From NCBI GenBank assembly GCA_031280375.1, contig JAITGU010000176.1, positions 1 to 38,927 on the forward strand: 38,927 nt of DNA. Direction: 5' to 3'. The position numbers were made by a program, and so were the translations under genes. Source of the DNA: Candidatus Methanovirga procula. Its GTDB lineage: Archaea > Methanobacteriota > Methanobacteria > Methanobacteriales > Methanobacteriaceae. Shown here piece by piece: positions 22,794-38,927 of the stretch (position 1 is its first letter; every line of letters begins with the position of its first letter). Under the pieces are notes generated by a model. It made no database searches, was not told where the DNA came from, and worked only from the letters and a program-made list of their open reading frames with translations.

Positions 22794-22842
22794 CAAAAAT
22801 TGCTTTGCAATTTTTGTAATTATGAAAATCCAAAGGATTTTC
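22794..22842. repeat. Two adjacent C-NNN-G micro-hairpins
   Basis: The first has stem CAAAAATTGC, loop TTT and stem GCAATTTTTG (22794-22816), ten perfect pairs. The second has stem GAAAATCC, loop AAA and stem GGATTTTC (22824-22842), eight perfect pairs. Both loops are three bases closed by C:G. A weaker AATC-TTT-GATT follows at about 22846. Confidence 0.65.
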
Positions 22843-22970
22843 AGTAATCTTTGATTTTCAGTGATTAAAAATATATTATTTTTTTTATAAATAATCTTTA
22901 TTAAATTGATTCAATGAAATAAACTTATTATTTATAAAATTTTTTTATTTTATAAATATCAAAAATCTTC

Positions 22971-22987: not shown

Positions 22988-23189
22988 TTTAATTTATATT
23001 TTAAGATTAAAATATTGATTTTTTATTAGGTTAAATTTCAAAAATTTTATTTAAAAACTGTTGAATATAAAAGAATAAATATACAATTAACTAATATTAT
23101 GGTATTAGATTTATTTAATGTTATGCATTGAATAAAATTTTATAAATAGTAAAAAATTAAAGTTTTTTAAACTTATAAAAACTTTTGAT

Positions 23190-23252
23190 GAAACTTTTGT
23201 TTTGAACGAAGTGAAAAATTTAGGAGACGGAGTCTCCGTTTTTAAAAGTTTC
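23190..23252. repeat. Nested micro-hairpin element (minus orientation)
   Basis: Outer 9-bp stem GAAACTTTT (23190-23198) with AAAAGTTTC (23244-23252). Inside is GGAGAC, loop GGA, GTCTCC (23223-23237). On the minus strand the inner hairpin is followed by CTAAATTTTTC and a TTCACTTCGTTC segment. This matches the order hairpin, CTAA(G/A)TTTCTC, TTTCATTCGAAA seen at 31676 and 38802, so the element is an inverted copy of that family. Confidence 0.6.
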
Positions 23253-23304
23253 TTCTAAATAGTAAAATAATTCTTTAAAAATGGATTTTATTATTTTTAA
23301 AAAA

Positions 23305-31237: not shown

Positions 31238-31465
31238 ATGATTATGAGAACTCAGACTAAAATAGATGTAATATCTTTTTCTTTGCAGGATTAGGACAAG
31301 CTTACAATAAACAATTAGGTAAAGCAATAATTTTTGTAATAATAGAATCACTTTTATTAGAATTATTTAGAATACAATTGATTCATAAGAATTTTTTATT
31401 ACTAATTGGTATTATATTCTATGTATGATGCATATAAAAATTTTAAAAATAGAGAGCTTCTATAA
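31238..31465 (+). pseudogene. Frameshifted TM2-like small membrane protein
   Basis: ATG 31238 (or 31244) gives MIMRTQTKIDV. The reading then needs a frame change near 31272 to continue FFFAGLGQAYNKQLGKAIIF and a second hydrophobic helix (NFLLLIGIIFYV), and a second change near 31425 to end DAYKNFKNRELL. GLGQAYN with two helices and a D-A-Y ending resembles the small TM2/DUF5683-type proteins common in archaea. Two frameshifts in about 75 codons make it a pseudogene. Confidence 0.5.
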
Positions 31466-31567
31466 ACTTAATTTAAACATATATTGATATGATGTTTTGT
31501 TATTATTTTCATTTTTTCATTGAAAATTCGCATATTTTGTCTTAAGGCTAATTTCATCACTATTTTT

Positions 31568-31986
31568 AGGGATTTCCCTAATTTTTTCATAGCTACCGCT
31601 AAGCGGAACAAATTTCCTTTAGTAATCTTGGTAGTTGAATTATAGTTAAATGCTGTACATTCAATTTTTTAAAACGGAACCTTCGATTCCTAAGTTTCTC
31701 ATTTCATTCGAAACAAACGAGAAATCGAAAGATTTTTCTAAGTTGTCTTCGACAACAAACAGGAAAATCAAAGATTTTCCCTAAATTATTGCGAAATCGT
31801 AGATTTTGCAATTAGTTAGAAAAGCGAAGCTTTTCTAAATTTTAAAAGCAATAGGTTTTAAACTTAGGAAAATCGAAGATTTTCCGTGTGTTGCAAAATC
31901 ATAGATTTTGCACAGTCAGAAAAAATTTTTATTTTTTCTAAAATTTCTCGTTTCACTCGAAATAAAAAACGGAAATTAAAATTTCC
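31568..31986. repeat. Dense micro-hairpin array (C-NNN-G triloops)
   Basis: At least a dozen hairpins in 420 bases. They are AGGGA/TCCCT 31568; CCGC-TAA-GCGG 31596; GGAACC-TTC-GATTCC 31676; GAAATC-GAAA-GATTTT 31721; GTTGTC-TTC-GACAAC 31742; GGAAAATC-AAA 31762; an 10-bp GTA-loop stem 31789-31811; TTAGAAAAGC-GAA 31816-31838; GGAAAATC-GAA 31867; TGCAAAATC-ATA 31892; AGAAAAAAT-TTTT 31918; GGAAAT-TAAA-ATTTCC 31971. All triloops are closed by C:G. Many hairpins run into CTAAGTT or CTAAATT. Stem sequences differ. No ORF. Confidence 0.75.
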
Positions 31987-32363
31987 TAAATTTCCTTTGA
32001 AAATATTGATTAAAACTTTTTGATCAAACTTTTCTTACATTTAGGTAAGTTAGGAAACAAAATCCCCCTTTTTTTAAAATTTTGACTTTTAACCCTTGCG
32101 GCGAGTTTTTTTTGATGACCTGGATCTTGTTATGTAATTATGCATCCTTGATTCATACTCTCTTCCAGACTCTAATCCATAATTATACTATCATATTCAT
32201 TGAACAAAGACCATTAGTTTCCATAATTCCATCTTCCACCTCTTTGTCTTATTTTTATAAAAGTCATGAAAATATTGTTTTATATTTTTTATATTTTATT
32301 AATTTTTTATTTAATATTCAATATATAAATTAATACTTAATATAATTAAATTATTAAAATTAT

Positions 32364-32684: not shown

Positions 32685-35600
32685 ATGGGAAAAGATATTA
32701 AAAAAGAGTTTAAAGACCTTAGAATGAATTTACTGGATTTAACTTCAAAAAACCCTCTTCTTAGTTTTAAACAAAGATCTAAATCTATTGAAATAGTTAA
32801 CAGCACACCTTCAAACATTTACAATTTTCTTATTCTACAACATAAAAAAATGTATTTCCTTCCAAATAAGAAAGAGCCTGAAAGACAAACTAAATCAAAG
32901 TTTTCATCCATTACTGAACCTATTAAAGAAGCTTTTGAACCTATTACTGAACAGTTAACAGAATTAAATAAATCTTTACAAATTGATGATTCTCTTAAAT
33001 CTGATTTAACTCCACGAGAATTACAGAAAAAGCTTTTTTATATAAATCAGTTATCTAAAACTATGATTCAAGAAAAAGGATACAATGTTCTTTATTTGGC
33101 TGCTGGATTTTTAGAGTGGAGTGATAGATATAAACCAGCAGATATTAAAAGAGCTCCTCTTGCTTTAATTCCTGTTGTTTTAGAGAGAAAATCTGTGGGA
33201 AAATCTTTTTCTGTTCAGTGGAATGGTGAGGATATAAAGACGAACATATCTCTTAAAGCTAAACTTAAAGAAGATGGATTGATTTTGCCTGATTTTAAAA
33301 TGAAGGGTTATATTGATTCAATTGAACATTACTTTTCAGATATTAAAAAGAGTTTATCAAAAGGAGGTAATGGTGTTTTATCTTCATGGAATATTAGTAA
33401 CGATGTTGCCCTTGGATTTTTTTCCTTTACTAAATTTGTAATGTACACGGATTTAGATCCTAATCTTGATTTAAAGAACAATGAACTTGTAGAAGCTATT
33501 TTCCGTCCTGACTCTAATAAAGATATAGAGTCTTTTAATAGTGAAGATATTGATAAGAAGTTATCCTACAAGGATTTATACAACGTTTTAGATGCTGATT
33601 CCTCACAGATAGCTGTTATTGAAGATGTTAAAGCTGGCCGTAATCTTGTTGTTGAAGGACCTCCTGGAACAGGGAAGTCACAGACTATTGTCAATTTAAT
33701 AGCTGAGCTGATTGGTTCAGGTAAAAGTGTTCTTTTTGTAAGTGAGAAGATGGCTGCTCTTGAAGTTGTTAAGAATAGATTGGAGAGTGTTGGTCTTGGT
33801 AAGTTCGTTCTTCAATTACACAGTCATAGAACAAGTCGTAGGAGTTTGTTAAAAGAGATTAAAAGAGGACTTAATCGTCGTGATTTAGACGATGATTTAG
33901 ATGTTGAACAAACGATAAGAAAGTTAGAATCACTGCGAAGTCAGTTGGATGAGTATGTTGAGGTTCTTCATGAGAAAAATTATGCCATTGAAATGTCTCC
34001 TTTTGAACTTTATGGTATGAAAGAAATAGCTAATGACCATTTTTCAAAAAAAGGTATGATAATTCCATTGGTGCCATTTGATTCTCCTGAGAATATTACT
34101 AAAAAAGATTTAGATAATATGGTTATTGAACTTGAGAACTTAGCAGAGTTACATCATACAATTGGCGAAAACAATCCTTGGACTACTTGTTCACCTAACA
34201 GTTTACTTCCTGGTGATTTAAGAGAAATTCAGCAGTTATTGATTGATAGTGAAAATTATTTAAACGAGTTCACGGTGCTTGGGGACAATTTAAATAAATC
34301 TTTTGGGATTAAGTTTGCGGATAATCTGGAAATTTTTGAAGAGATAAAAGAAGCTTTGGATATATTCAACGATGAAAAGGTTAAATTAATTGATAAAACT
34401 ATTTTAAGTAGTTCTCAATGGTTTAATAATGGTTCTTATGGATTAGATTTAATTAAGAAACTTGATGAATATCAGAAAACTCTTTTTGTAATGAACAAAT
34501 TCTATGCTTCCATAGAAAATGAAGACATAGATTTATTAATCAATGAATTCATGGATTATAATAGTAAAGGTGTTTTAAAACTCTTTAAAAAGAACAAGCC
34601 AATTAAAAAGAAGATATTATCTTTTTATAAGGATAAGTACAAAGGAAGCAATGATAAAAATATTTTAGAAGATCTCCAAGATGTTAACAGATTTCTTAGA
34701 ATTAAGAATGGTTTACATAATTTAGATGATGATGGAAAGAAATATTTTGGTGATTTATGGTATTTGGATGTTGATATTTCACAGTTAAAATCTGTTGCAA
34801 CTTGGGTTGATGGTTTTAACAAATTTTTAAAAGATGGTACTTATAATAAGTTGACAATTGAAAAATTATCTGATGATTTGAGTATTAATAATCATTGGGA
34901 ACTTAATGAGTATCTTGAAATTGGTGAGAAATTTTGTAATAGCTTAAAGAAATTAAAATCTAAATTAAATCCTAACATTAATTTAATATTTAAAAATAAT
35001 TTTGAGAATGTTCCATTAACTTTATGGAAGAAACAAGTAAATAAATGGAGTAGTGATCTTTCAAGATTACATATATGGTCACAATATCTTAATACTAAAA
35101 ATAGCTGTTTAGAAACATCATCTAAGATGTTTGTTAAGGTTATTGAAGATAAAAATCTTAAAAAGGAAGATGTCAAAAGTTTGATTTATGGAAATTTTGC
35201 TGATGTACTTTTACAATTAATTTTTTCAGAAAATCAATATCTATCATCATTTATAGGTGAACTACATGAAAATAAAATCAAAGACTTTAAAAAACTTGAC
35301 TTAAAAATCATTGAGTTAAACAGGAAAAGAATATATTATAAACTTAACAAGGAAATTCCAGAAATTTTTGGTAACACTACACATAAGGAATCCAAGATAT
35401 TGGCTGGTGAACTTACAAGAAAAAGAGGAAATATACCTCTTAGAACCCTGCTCAAAAAAACAGGAGTGATTATAAAACAGATAAAGCCTTGTTTTATGAT
35501 GAGTCCACTTTCAATTGCAGAGTTTTTGGATCCATCTAACAGTGACCTAAAGTTTGATGTTGTTGTATTTGATGAAGCGAGTCAAGTGAAACCAGAAGAT

Positions 35601-38600
35601 GCACTTGGAGCTTTTATGAGAGCTAAAACAGCTGTTGTAATTGGAGATACACAACAACTCCCTCCAACATCCTTTTTTGACCAGATGATTAGTTCAGAGT
35701 CTGATGATGAAATAGCTACTGCACTGGATATGGAAAGTATTCTTCATCTATGTAAACTATCATTTCCAGTTAGAATGTTAAAATGGCATTACAGAAGTAG
35801 ACACGAAACATTAATTAATTTATCCAACAAAGAATTTTATGATGGTGAATTATTAGTTTACCCATCAGCAACATATAATAATCCAGAATTAGGATTAAAG
35901 TTTAAATACAATCCAGATAACCCTTATCAAAGAGGAAAAAGTGCGACCAATAGAGGACAAGCTATTGAAGTAGTTGATGAAATATTCAAACACTTTAAGA
36001 AATATGGTACCAGGAAAAGTTTGGGAGTAGGAACATTCTCGGTTTCACAAATGAATGCTATACTTGAAGAACTTGAAATTAGAAGAAAAGAACATCCAGA
36101 ACTTGAACATTTATTTTCAGAGAAAAAAGAAGACAGATTCTTCGTTAAAAACCTTGAAACAATACAGGGTGATGAAAGAGATGTCATGTTAATAAGTATA
36201 GGTTATGGATTTGATGAATTAGGCAAATTATCGAGTAACTTCGGTCCTTTAAATCAAGATGGAGGGGAAAGAAGATTAAATGTTCTAATAACTCGTGCAA
36301 AAGAAAAATGTGTTGTATTCTCAAACTTCAAAGCCTATGATATGCACTTAGGAGTTAACACACCATTTGGTGTAGAAGCACTTAGAAATTTCTTAGAATA
36401 TGCTGAAAATGCATCTAAAGGTTTAATTCAGCATAAAGAAAACAGGAAACAGGAAACATTTGTTAATAGTGTTTACAATTTTCTTAAAAGTGAAGGATTT
36501 AAAGTTCATAAGAATGTTGGAGATTTCTTTAAAATAGATTTAGCTATTTTAGATGATGAAGATCCTGGCAAATATATTCTGGGTATTGAATGTGATGGAG
36601 AAAACTATGAATCGTCTAAAGTTGCAAGAGATAGGGATCGTCTTAGAGATCAAGTATTAAATGGTCTTGATTGGAATTTGTATCATCTTTGGTCAACAGA
36701 TTGGTATAGAAACAGAAATTTTGCCCAAACAAAACTTATTAATTCCATTGACAAAACTAAGGAAGAAATTAAGATTAAGGAAGAAGAAAGAATTAAAGAA
36801 GAAGGATTGTTTAAAGAAAAAGAAAGACTTGAGCAGGAAAAAAGATTTACAGAAATGAAACTTGAAGAGGAAGGGAGACTTGAAGAAGAAAAAAAATTTG
36901 AACAAGAGAAATTTGAGCAAGATGAACTTGAGGGAGAGCTTAAAGAAGAAACAGGCACTTTCGAAGGAATAATAAGTGTTGAGGAAGGAATAAGTGATTT
37001 TGAAGAAGAAATTGATATAGTTGAAGAACTTAAAGAAAAAGAGGAATTTGAAAATGAAAAAATAGCTATTGGAAATGAGAAAGTAGCTATTGAAATTGAA
37101 AAAATAAGCCTTGAAAATGAAGATATAGGTATTGAAGAAAAGAAAGAAGAGTTTGAAGAAAATAAAAATAATAATAAAAAAGATGATGAAGAAAATATTG
37201 ATACTAAATTTAAATTTAAAAAATCTTTAAAGGATTTTATTAATCCAAATAAAGATAATAATTCTAATAAAAGTAGTATTAATAATTGTAATAAAAATAA
37301 TAATAAAGAAAATAATGAATATAATCATAATTACGGTGATAATGAAATAAATAGTAATGAAAATAATAAGAATAAGAAAAATAGAAGAAGTTACTTTAGT
37401 TTCTTGAATAATAAAACTAATAATAAAACTAATGATTTAAATAAAGATTTTGATTCAATTAATGAAAATGATAGTAAAAATGATAAAAATCAATTGAGTG
37501 AAGATAATGATTATTTAGAGGAAATAATATCTAGTTTTGATGATAATGATAATGGAACTAAAGATTATTCTAATATAAAATCTGAAGACTTTATTGAAAA
37601 TAATGAATTTAATAGCAACAAGCAAAATCAAGATAATTATGAAGACTATTCAAATGATGATTATTTAAACGATGACGAGTATTACAACCTAACTGACCTT
37701 AGCAATCCTCTTAGTAAAAATGCTGTTATTAAAAATCAAAAGGACAATAACCCATTTAAGGCTTTATCAGGACTAAAAAACGAAGTTAAATACATAAAAA
37801 AAGCTTTGAAACAGATTGAAAACAAAACTCCAAGAGAGACAATTTCGCTCATCGATAGAACAGATGATGAACTTGAGGAAGATAATACTTATATTAATAA
37901 AAAAATAGATTATAAAGATTCAAATCTAATGAATAAAAATTCAACTATTAATGATGAGTGTTTAGATGATAGTAATGATAATACTTTAATTGATGATGAT
38001 TTTGAGATTAATAAAAATATAGAATTTAATCATGATGAATATTCCGATGAATTTTTAGAGGACATAATTAATAGAGTTGACACTCCATTTAATTTGGAGA
38101 ATCAGATGAAACATGTGGACGATACCATAATTCCTAAAAAATTAAAAGATATTAAAAATTCCATAGAACCATATAAGAAAACCAAGTTAAATATAAATAA
38201 AACCCTTGATGAATTTTATAGAACTCCTGATAAAGAAATTAATCATATGATCAATAAAATCGTTTTAACTGAAGGTCCTATACATATTAAAGAAGTAATT
38301 GGGAGAATGAAAGAGGGTTTAAATCTTAGTCGTGCTACTTCAAAATTTAAGAATAAGGTTAATGAATCTATTAAAAATAGTGAGAACGCAGGACTAATCT
38401 TTGTCGATGATGATTTTCTATTTTCGACGAAAGAAGCCACTATTCAGGTTAGAAAACGTAAAAAACCTAATATAGACTTAATCTCAGATGTTGAAATTGA
38501 AGAAAATATTCGGATGATTTTAGAGAAGAATAACACTTTAAAGAATAAGGATTTAATTAAGCAGGTAGCTAAAAATTTTGGTTTTAAGTCAGCGACAAAG

Positions 38601-38693
38601 AAAACAAGTTTAAAGGTTGCTCATGTTATTGACTATTTACTTGCTAAAAAAGCTTTATTGGCTGAAGATGATGTATTAAAATGGAATAATTAA
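32685..38693 (+). CDS. DUF4011-SF1 helicase-PD-(D/E)XK nuclease-DUF3320 protein, probable anti-phage defence
   Basis: 2002 residues. The DUF4011 head is FKDLRMNLLDLTSKNPLLSF (about 10-260). The SF1 helicase has Walker A GPPGTGKSQT at 325-334, Walker B DEAS at 963-966, GDTQQLPPTSF at 987, WHYRSRHE at 1034, QGDERD at 1161 and LNVLITRAKEK near 1200. A Vsr/MTES_1575-like nuclease (about 1240-1345) has D1285, E1302-C-D-G, then RDRLRDQVLNGLDWNLYHLW. A Glu/Lys coiled coil (about 1360-1430), an Asn/Asp-rich segment (about 1490-1770) and a C-terminal DUF3320/winged-helix part (about 1840-2002) follow. The domain set resembles the single-gene Hhe defence protein. It is flanked by hairpin arrays; function is inferred. 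Confidence 0.85.
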   Translation: MGKDIKKEFKDLRMNLLDLTSKNPLLSFKQRSKSIEIVNSTPSNIYNFLILQHKKMYFLPNKKEPERQTKSKFSSITEPIKEAFEPITEQLTELNKSLQIDDSLKSDLTPRELQKKLFYINQLSKTMIQEKGYNVLYLAAGFLEWSDRYKPADIKRAPLALIPVVLERKSVGKSFSVQWNGEDIKTNISLKAKLKEDGLILPDFKMKGYIDSIEHYFSDIKKSLSKGGNGVLSSWNISNDVALGFFSFTKFVMYTDLDPNLDLKNNELVEAIFRPDSNKDIESFNSEDIDKKLSYKDLYNVLDADSSQIAVIEDVKAGRNLVVEGPPGTGKSQTIVNLIAELIGSGKSVLFVSEKMAALEVVKNRLESVGLGKFVLQLHSHRTSRRSLLKEIKRGLNRRDLDDDLDVEQTIRKLESLRSQLDEYVEVLHEKNYAIEMSPFELYGMKEIANDHFSKKGMIIPLVPFDSPENITKKDLDNMVIELENLAELHHTIGENNPWTTCSPNSLLPGDLREIQQLLIDSENYLNEFTVLGDNLNKSFGIKFADNLEIFEEIKEALDIFNDEKVKLIDKTILSSSQWFNNGSYGLDLIKKLDEYQKTLFVMNKFYASIENEDIDLLINEFMDYNSKGVLKLFKKNKPIKKKILSFYKDKYKGSNDKNILEDLQDVNRFLRIKNGLHNLDDDGKKYFGDLWYLDVDISQLKSVATWVDGFNKFLKDGTYNKLTIEKLSDDLSINNHWELNEYLEIGEKFCNSLKKLKSKLNPNINLIFKNNFENVPLTLWKKQVNKWSSDLSRLHIWSQYLNTKNSCLETSSKMFVKVIEDKNLKKEDVKSLIYGNFADVLLQLIFSENQYLSSFIGELHENKIKDFKKLDLKIIELNRKRIYYKLNKEIPEIFGNTTHKESKILAGELTRKRGNIPLRTLLKKTGVIIKQIKPCFMMSPLSIAEFLDPSNSDLKFDVVVFDEASQVKPEDALGAFMRAKTAVVIGDTQQLPPTSFFDQMISSESDDEIATALDMESILHLCKLSFPVRMLKWHYRSRHETLINLSNKEFYDGELLVYPSATYNNPELGLKFKYNPDNPYQRGKSATNRGQAIEVVDEIFKHFKKYGTRKSLGVGTFSVSQMNAILEELEIRRKEHPELEHLFSEKKEDRFFVKNLETIQGDERDVMLISIGYGFDELGKLSSNFGPLNQDGGERRLNVLITRAKEKCVVFSNFKAYDMHLGVNTPFGVEALRNFLEYAENASKGLIQHKENRKQETFVNSVYNFLKSEGFKVHKNVGDFFKIDLAILDDEDPGKYILGIECDGENYESSKVARDRDRLRDQVLNGLDWNLYHLWSTDWYRNRNFAQTKLINSIDKTKEEIKIKEEERIKEEGLFKEKERLEQEKRFTEMKLEEEGRLEEEKKFEQEKFEQDELEGELKEETGTFEGIISVEEGISDFEEEIDIVEELKEKEEFENEKIAIGNEKVAIEIEKISLENEDIGIEEKKEEFEENKNNNKKDDEENIDTKFKFKKSLKDFINPNKDNNSNKSSINNCNKNNNKENNEYNHNYGDNEINSNENNKNKKNRRSYFSFLNNKTNNKTNDLNKDFDSINENDSKNDKNQLSEDNDYLEEIISSFDDNDNGTKDYSNIKSEDFIENNEFNSNKQNQDNYEDYSNDDYLNDDEYYNLTDLSNPLSKNAVIKNQKDNNPFKALSGLKNEVKYIKKALKQIENKTPRETISLIDRTDDELEEDNTYINKKIDYKDSNLMNKNSTINDECLDDSNDNTLIDDDFEINKNIEFNHDEYSDEFLEDIINRVDTPFNLENQMKHVDDTIIPKKLKDIKNSIEPYKKTKLNINKTLDEFYRTPDKEINHMINKIVLTEGPIHIKEVIGRMKEGLNLSRATSKFKNKVNESIKNSENAGLIFVDDDFLFSTKEATIQVRKRKKPNIDLISDVEIEENIRMILEKNNTLKNKDLIKQVAKNFGFKSATKKTSLKVAHVIDYLLAKKALLAEDDVLKWNN

Positions 38694-38784
38694 ATAGTTT
38701 TAAAAAGGTTATAATAATCTTTAAATTAAAATTTGAATATATTGTTTCTCTTATTTATTAACATCATAATATTTTTATTATTTA

Positions 38785-38927
38785 TAAGAACCTTTTAAAA
38801 CGGAGAATCAAAGATTCTCCTAAGTTTCTCGTTTCATTCGAAACAAACATGAAATTAAAAAATTTCATTAAATCTCTTTCAGAAATAAACGAAACCTTCG
38901 GTTTCTAAGTTGTCTTCGACAACAACG
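38785..38927. repeat. Micro-hairpin array at window end (truncated by the edge)
   Basis: Begins with AAGAACCTTTTAAAACGGA, half of the dispersed hairpin. Then come GGAGAATC-AAA-GATTCTCC (38802-38820), TAAGTTTCTCGTTTCATTCG with GTTTC/GAAAC, ATGAAATT-AAAA-AATTTCAT (38849-38868), GAAACC-TTC-GGTTTC (38891-38905) and GTTGTC-TTC-GACAAC (38909-38923). The last hairpin and its flanks are identical over 23 bases to 31737-31759. The array starts about 90 bases after the helicase stop and runs off the window. Confidence 0.7.

Follow-up and report, generated by a model that had tools for sequence, protein, structure and literature searches.

Results

A stack of hairpins lies within a broken insertion sequence

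The window, by which we mean the whole 38,927-nucleotide stretch of DNA that was analysed, is contig C70 of a 2.25-Mb draft genome of Candidatus Methanovirga (G000). Its DUF2113 protein is 95% identical to that of Candidatus Methanovirga australis (G002), 83% to that of M. meridionalis and 80% to that of M. aequatorialis, and G000 and G002 share ~90% identity across their common sequence. Methanovirga is a genus of termite-gut methanogens formerly included in Methanobrevibacter (PMC10684969) and has been reported both from lower termites and from the flagellates of their gut (PMC10684969, PMC13135261); neither palindromes nor hairpins are mentioned in the text of these two papers. The forward strand encodes, at 32685-38693, a 2002-aa protein with DUF4011, AAA_11/AAA_12 helicase, MTES_1575 nuclease and DUF3320 domains, whose layout resembles an anti-phage defence protein and which adjoins a hairpin-bearing IS remnant.

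This remnant is a transposase copy on the reverse strand, preserved in two pieces, 31439-31661 (223 bp, 94% identity to the G002 locus L080) and 32080-32231 (152 bp, 89%). Between them, at 31668-32056 on the forward strand, lies an array of stacked hairpin units that is absent from the G002 copy; the latter runs on uninterrupted where the remnant meets the array, and a frame of it matches the DUF772 transposase domain (E 1e-6). In further copies of this broken IS (L021, L031, L016, L126) the arrays differ. The array folds far more strongly than its shuffles, with z-scores of -8.5 as RNA and -9.1 as DNA.

Read along the forward strand, the array begins with a hairpin of the type that we call alpha, GGAACC-ttc-GATTCC (31676-31690), which has one mismatch and is preceded by AAAAC and followed by TAAG. 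Next comes a beta hairpin, TTTC-attc-GAAA, with its flanks and the AAAC leading into the next unit (31695-31718), then the imperfect alpha hairpin of that unit, GAGAAATC-gaaa-GATTTTTC (31719-31738), and, in the beta position between CTAA and AAAC, GTTGTC-ttc-GACAAC (31742-31756). A block from about 31696 to 31738 is missing from the G002 contig L074. The array continues with GGAAAATC-aaa-GATTTTCC (31762-31780), followed by CTAAATT, TTGCGAAATC-gta-GATTTTGCAA with one mismatch (31788-31811), TTAGAAAAGC-gaa-GCTTTTCTAA (31816-31838), GGAAAATC-gaa-GATTTTCC (31867-31885), TGCAAAATC-ata-GATTTTGCA (31892-31912) and an alpha hairpin with a T:A-closed tetraloop in the same AAAC...TAAA frame, GGAAAT-taaa-ATTTCC (31972-31987). 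Outside Methanovirga, GGAAAATC-gaa-GATTTTCC recurs in a genome from another genus of the family (G019, L153 2941-3169), where a tandem repeat contains it three times at 105 bp spacing, a context unlike that of the array.

Related structures occur elsewhere in the window. A second double-hairpin family, CAAAAATTGC-ttt-GCAATTTTTG plus TGAAAATCC-aaa-GGATTTTCA, is found at 22794-22843 (forward strand), and other copies of it are missing from matching repeats. The reverse strand has a larger hairpin, termed the carrier, both empty (AGAAGAACCTTTTAAAAAAAGGTTCATCAAAA, 31-62) and holding one alpha-beta unit (carrier 23183-23256, unit ~23201-23239); an empty version of the latter lies at L039 (G000:C158:3080-3111). 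A carrier-type array starts at 38784 on the forward strand and runs off the contig end at 38927, with alpha hairpins at 38802-38820 and 38891-38905 and a further hairpin at 38909-38923. The contig thus ends within a hairpin array (38802-38927), and the start of contig C81 (L015 1-120) repeats ~120 identical bases and carries this array further. Units coincide with many contig breaks, and some arrays in these draft assemblies, which are interrupted at hairpin arrays, may be misassembled. Because the repeats break assembly, the true arrays are longer and more numerous than those visible.

Hairpins are strongly enriched and share a loose geometry

An earlier note on this DNA listed fifteen triloop hairpins, all closed by C:G. 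Twelve of them have perfect C:G-closed stems that reach 6 bp or more; the other three fall short, the hairpin at 31596 having a stem of only 4 bp and those at 31676 and 31789 one mismatch each. Statistics were drawn from 341-567 kb, partly selected for hairpin content, and triloops were counted in 341 kb of G000 (118.7 kb intergenic, 20.7% G+C). There, C:G-closed intergenic triloops with stems of at least 6 bp number 128 against 6.0 in order-1 shuffles, and those with stems of at least 8 bp 71 against 0.2, an enrichment that holds against shuffles of the same DNA although absolute density is inflated, because the sampled contigs were selected for one hairpin type. G:C-closed triloops are at chance (4 versus 5.0), and GAAAATCNNNGATTTTC occurs 77 times in the genome and not at all in the reversed control.

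A common geometry does exist, though it is less strict than the earlier note supposed. Its shared shape with differing stems and its common CTAA(G/A)TT linkers are borne out. T:A-closed loops (GGGAATttcATTCCC) and tetraloops (GAAGAATTAATTCTTC, GGGAACtgaaGTTCCC) are flanked by the same linkers as the C:G-closed triloops, so C:G closure is common and not a rule. The emphasis on C-GNA-G loops needs the same correction: 49 of the 128 C:G-closed triloops (38%) show GNA on one strand, but AAA/TTT loops are equally frequent (49/128, 38%).

Units of two hairpins fill a carrier in whole steps

Comparison of filled and empty sites defines the insertion unit as a double hairpin of 40-50 nt, AAA-C-[hairpin alpha]-TAA(G/A)-[hairpin beta]-AAA. 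The alpha and beta hairpins are unlike in sequence and always stand in that order. When several arrays are compared, they follow one grammar, AAAC-[alpha]-TAA(G/A)-[beta]-AAAC-[alpha']..., within the carrier, a hairpin with the pairing ends AGAAGAA(A/C)CTTTT ... AAGTTTCATCAAAA or AAGGTTCATCAAAA. The carrier ends are inverted (GAACCTTTT/AAAAGGTTC), whereas the unit itself has no inverted ends.

In sampled parts of two genomes we counted 39 carriers. Their inner length is 5 nt in the 11 empty ones, 23 nt in a single carrier with alpha alone, 45-52 nt in the 13 that hold one unit, 95-99 nt in 3 with two units and 114-374 nt in the remaining 11, which hold more. A gapped search of the whole G000 genome again gave a bimodal distribution, with 11, 1, 11 and 1 matches for gaps of 0-12, 13-42, 43-56 and 57-87; the 57-87 match is two consecutive empty carriers, and one of the 43-56 matches is a composite. 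Arrays with constant linkers and differing stems are the result of this whole-step filling of carriers by none, one, two or more units. As empty, one-unit and two-unit carriers are preserved, array growth can be read directly. The same carrier is present in G001, G002 and G003, and those of G001 and G003 hold other units.

Units are present or absent at matching sites

Matched sites of G000 and G002 differ by whole units: 36 bp is inserted into the A-run of CTATCAAAAA, between TATCAAAAA and TCACATATTTTGATA, 49 bp in another A-run and 48 bp at AAACG. Whole carriers are likewise present or absent between sites of the two genomes. Within G000 and G002 there are at least dozens of filled and empty repeat copies, many of them pairs of moderate identity for which loss is as possible as gain. 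The second family (CAAAAATTGCtttGCAATTTTTG, linker, TGAAAATCCaaaGGATTTTCA) has its empty sites at ATTAATTAATTAAAAA. Units insert in A-runs, especially in the loop of the carrier hairpin; either strand may hold them, and some lie in IS remnants or, in frame, within genes. Since the target is a homopolymer, any target duplication is hidden, and duplication of a few A would be compatible with the data. Units are thus present or absent at otherwise matching sites, both between sister species and between repeat copies, and their mobility is well supported, as is the earlier guess that the hairpins are a substrate of recombination or transposition.

Units also insert in frame within genes. The Elp3 genes of G000 and G002 contain, in their reading frame, a carrier together with a unit (QQPFKNEKSEIFLNSHASHENKRLIK in G000), whereas those of G001, G003 and G004 have a short loop at that place and no carrier plus unit. 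In G002 an empty carrier (CAACCTTTTAAAAAAAGGTTG) directly precedes the filled one, which is the clearest single picture of the insertion process. Carrier and unit give the Elp3 of these two Methanovirga species ~40 extra residues (L088 2523-2567, L128); the Elp3 of relatives has other low-complexity inserts in the same loop. Two AAA-ATPase/PDDEXK_9 genes contain in-frame 51-nt double hairpins (L007, L049).

Discussion

How the units may move

We conclude that the hairpins belong in pairs, each pair making up one very short non-autonomous mobile unit of ~40-50 nt, a reading to which we assign a probability of about three in four. In IS200/IS605 and REP-type systems, hairpins are recognised in single-stranded DNA. 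By analogy, an enzyme supplied in trans would recognise the hairpins in single-stranded DNA and then join units next to AAA; the A-run at the end of a unit would be the next landing site, so that arrays would grow. Stem letters may drift between unit lineages while hairpin and tags persist, and inserted copies would decay like neutral DNA.

Searches for a mobiliser or a source frame this proposal. Y1 transposase genes occur in seven hairpin-bearing genomes (G000, G001, G002, G003, G013, G028, G030), the copies in G000 and G002 being broken, and no Y1 match was obtained in the incomplete draft genomes of hairpin-bearing G004, G019 and G022. The only Y1 found in G000 belongs to a decayed IS605-type element with tnpA and tnpB fragments containing stops (L127, G000:C61). 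A reverse-transcriptase mobiliser was rejected, as G000 and G002 gave no RVT_1 match. The array had no match among phage and plasmid sequences, no viral contig contained the exact carrier motif, and an exact motif scan of GTDB genomes, from which near genomes may be missing, gave no match. The broken Y1 of G000, the unrelated IS605 ends (see below) and the negative reverse-transcriptase search in G000 and G002 count against this proposal. A hairpin-recognising single-strand enzyme is our best guess; given mobility, we consider this step about evenly poised. It is a tentative further suggestion that an unknown enzyme reads the double-hairpin shape, with its short and often C:G-closed loops, and the AAA/TAA tags, not the stem sequence. 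One machinery would then move several stem families, which would stack in each other's loops in whole-unit steps.

The units could instead be REPIN/RAYT-type or IS200/IS605-derived elements moved by a hairpin-binding Y1 (HUH) transposase. Two hairpins per unit, a short tag at the hairpin foot (CTTAG, on the other strand) and Y1 genes in seven hairpin-bearing genomes speak for this. Against it stand the hairpin-bearing genomes with no Y1 match and the broken copies in G000 and G002, and the IS605 end hairpins of relatives (CTATGACTGAAA...TTTCAGTCATAG; G001, G003, G028, G030) are unlike the units, on which ground we rejected an IS605 origin. We regard this alternative as unlikely.

A slightly less probable reading dispenses with a dedicated enzyme. 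Forks would stall at hairpins and the nascent strand would switch template at A-runs, copying the block elsewhere, while arm-to-arm copying would maintain perfect stems. The homopolymer targets fit such replication errors, as does the fact that a transposase partner was searched for and not found. Simple tandem gain or loss of a double hairpin does exist: a ~50-bp tandem repeat (TTATAAAATCtctGATTTTATAAGTTTAAAAATCtttGATTTTTTATTAT) differs in copy number between sister species (L044 4590-4690 versus L051). Against this reading, units with constant ends, always alpha before beta, are scattered over unlinked loci and genes. Slippage would yield near-identical tandem copies, yet neighbouring units differ in their alpha stems, which excludes tandem duplication as the sole source and agrees with the earlier note that simple repeat copying is not at work.

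Compensated between copies, decaying in place

Orthologous hairpins in a sister species comprise 155 stem pairs, a small sample, of which 146 are identical, 9 carry one-sided changes and none a two-sided change. This is the outcome that the earlier note had named as fatal to its proposal of selection for structure at each site, and a structured RNA family was rejected on it together with the Rfam result. Between copies, stem differences are compensated. Among alpha sequences chosen by their flanks, 340 of 702 cells are paired, whereas 500 shuffles average 240 and never exceed 274; the test used the beta context and its set includes non-hairpin members, so we treat it as supporting evidence only, and relatedness of the copies may add to the excess. 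An earlier covariation analysis with loose AAC...TAA flanks was drowned by the AT-rich background. Compensated diversity between copies with decay in place is consistent with units that move while well paired and thereafter decay neutrally.

The copies have no strand bias and no preferred gene arrangement. Between same-direction genes, 36 alpha units are sense and 43 antisense, which argues against the RNA processing sites considered earlier, and densities per kb are 0.40 in tandem, 0.35 in convergent and 0.24 in divergent arrangements. Mobile selfish DNA is favoured over conserved RNA because strand bias is absent and stem changes are one-sided only. Conserved structured RNA, terminators or processing sites under selection on structure, to which strong folding, shared geometry and compensated differences between copies would be suited, are very improbable given that Rfam matched no known RNA family in the window, that hairpins are absent from matching sister-species sites and that copies lie within genes and broken transposases.

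Comparison with known systems

The Methanovirga units would rank among the smallest known archaeal mobile elements, and conserved enzymes such as Elp3 acquire in-frame peptides from them. Their host genus is reported to live within flagellates of the termite gut, a setting in which selfish DNA may spread with ease. The many copies in a prokaryote also make it possible to test what mobilises hairpin elements as short as these.

Archaeal MITEs are likewise short, non-autonomous and multicopy. Their end repeats are those of a transposon resident in the same genome, whereas a parent transposon was not found for the Methanovirga units. Nor do the units appear to be miniature IS200/IS605 elements, as their ends do not match the resident IS605 hairpin ends. 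Cyanobacterial small dispersed repeats (SDRs) resemble our units in being very small, non-coding and repeated, and in showing signs of movement; no sequence relation between the two is known, and SDRs are not known to have a two-hairpin unit with a carrier system. REPINs and REP sequences with RAYTs, described in a paper that also names the SDRs, share dispersed hairpin doublets, compensated changes between copies and presence or absence at sites (PMC3116915). A REPIN pairs two inverted copies of a single REP whose end is conserved (PMC3116915), whereas the Methanovirga unit has two unlike hairpins in fixed order with variable stems, and on the unlike hairpins and their fixed order we rejected membership of REPIN/RAYT. 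No RAYT partner was found in the draft genomes.

Rickettsia palindromic elements (RPEs) are palindromic units that have entered unrelated genes without disrupting the reading frame (PMC10969869), and we find the same in-frame coding insertion in Elp3 and the two AAA-ATPase/PDDEXK genes. RPEs are ~150 bp long (PMC10969869), whereas our units are 40-51 nt and mostly intergenic; as both size and sequence differ, we do not file them as RPEs. The double-hairpin elements of Allomyces mtDNA and the repetitive hairpin-forming elements (RHE) of sponge mtDNA are also very short, lie in AT-rich host DNA, occur as single or double hairpins, both scattered and in tandem, with copies in genes, differ between close species and have no known enzyme (PMC2800124). 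No clear target duplication has been reported for the Allomyces elements, and in sponge RHE the stems are conserved and the loops vary (PMC2800124), whereas in Methanovirga the loops are partly conserved. As in these mitochondria, we find a dispersed two-hairpin unit present or absent between close species, here on an archaeal chromosome, with A-run targets and stepwise carrier filling; the likeness is one of behaviour, and we do not claim common descent. We regard the Methanovirga units as a new archaeal form of ultrashort, hairpin-based mobile DNA, which the features tested place in no prokaryotic family. On our comparison, those closest to them in behaviour are the mitochondrial double-hairpin elements, the REPINs and the Rickettsia palindromic elements.
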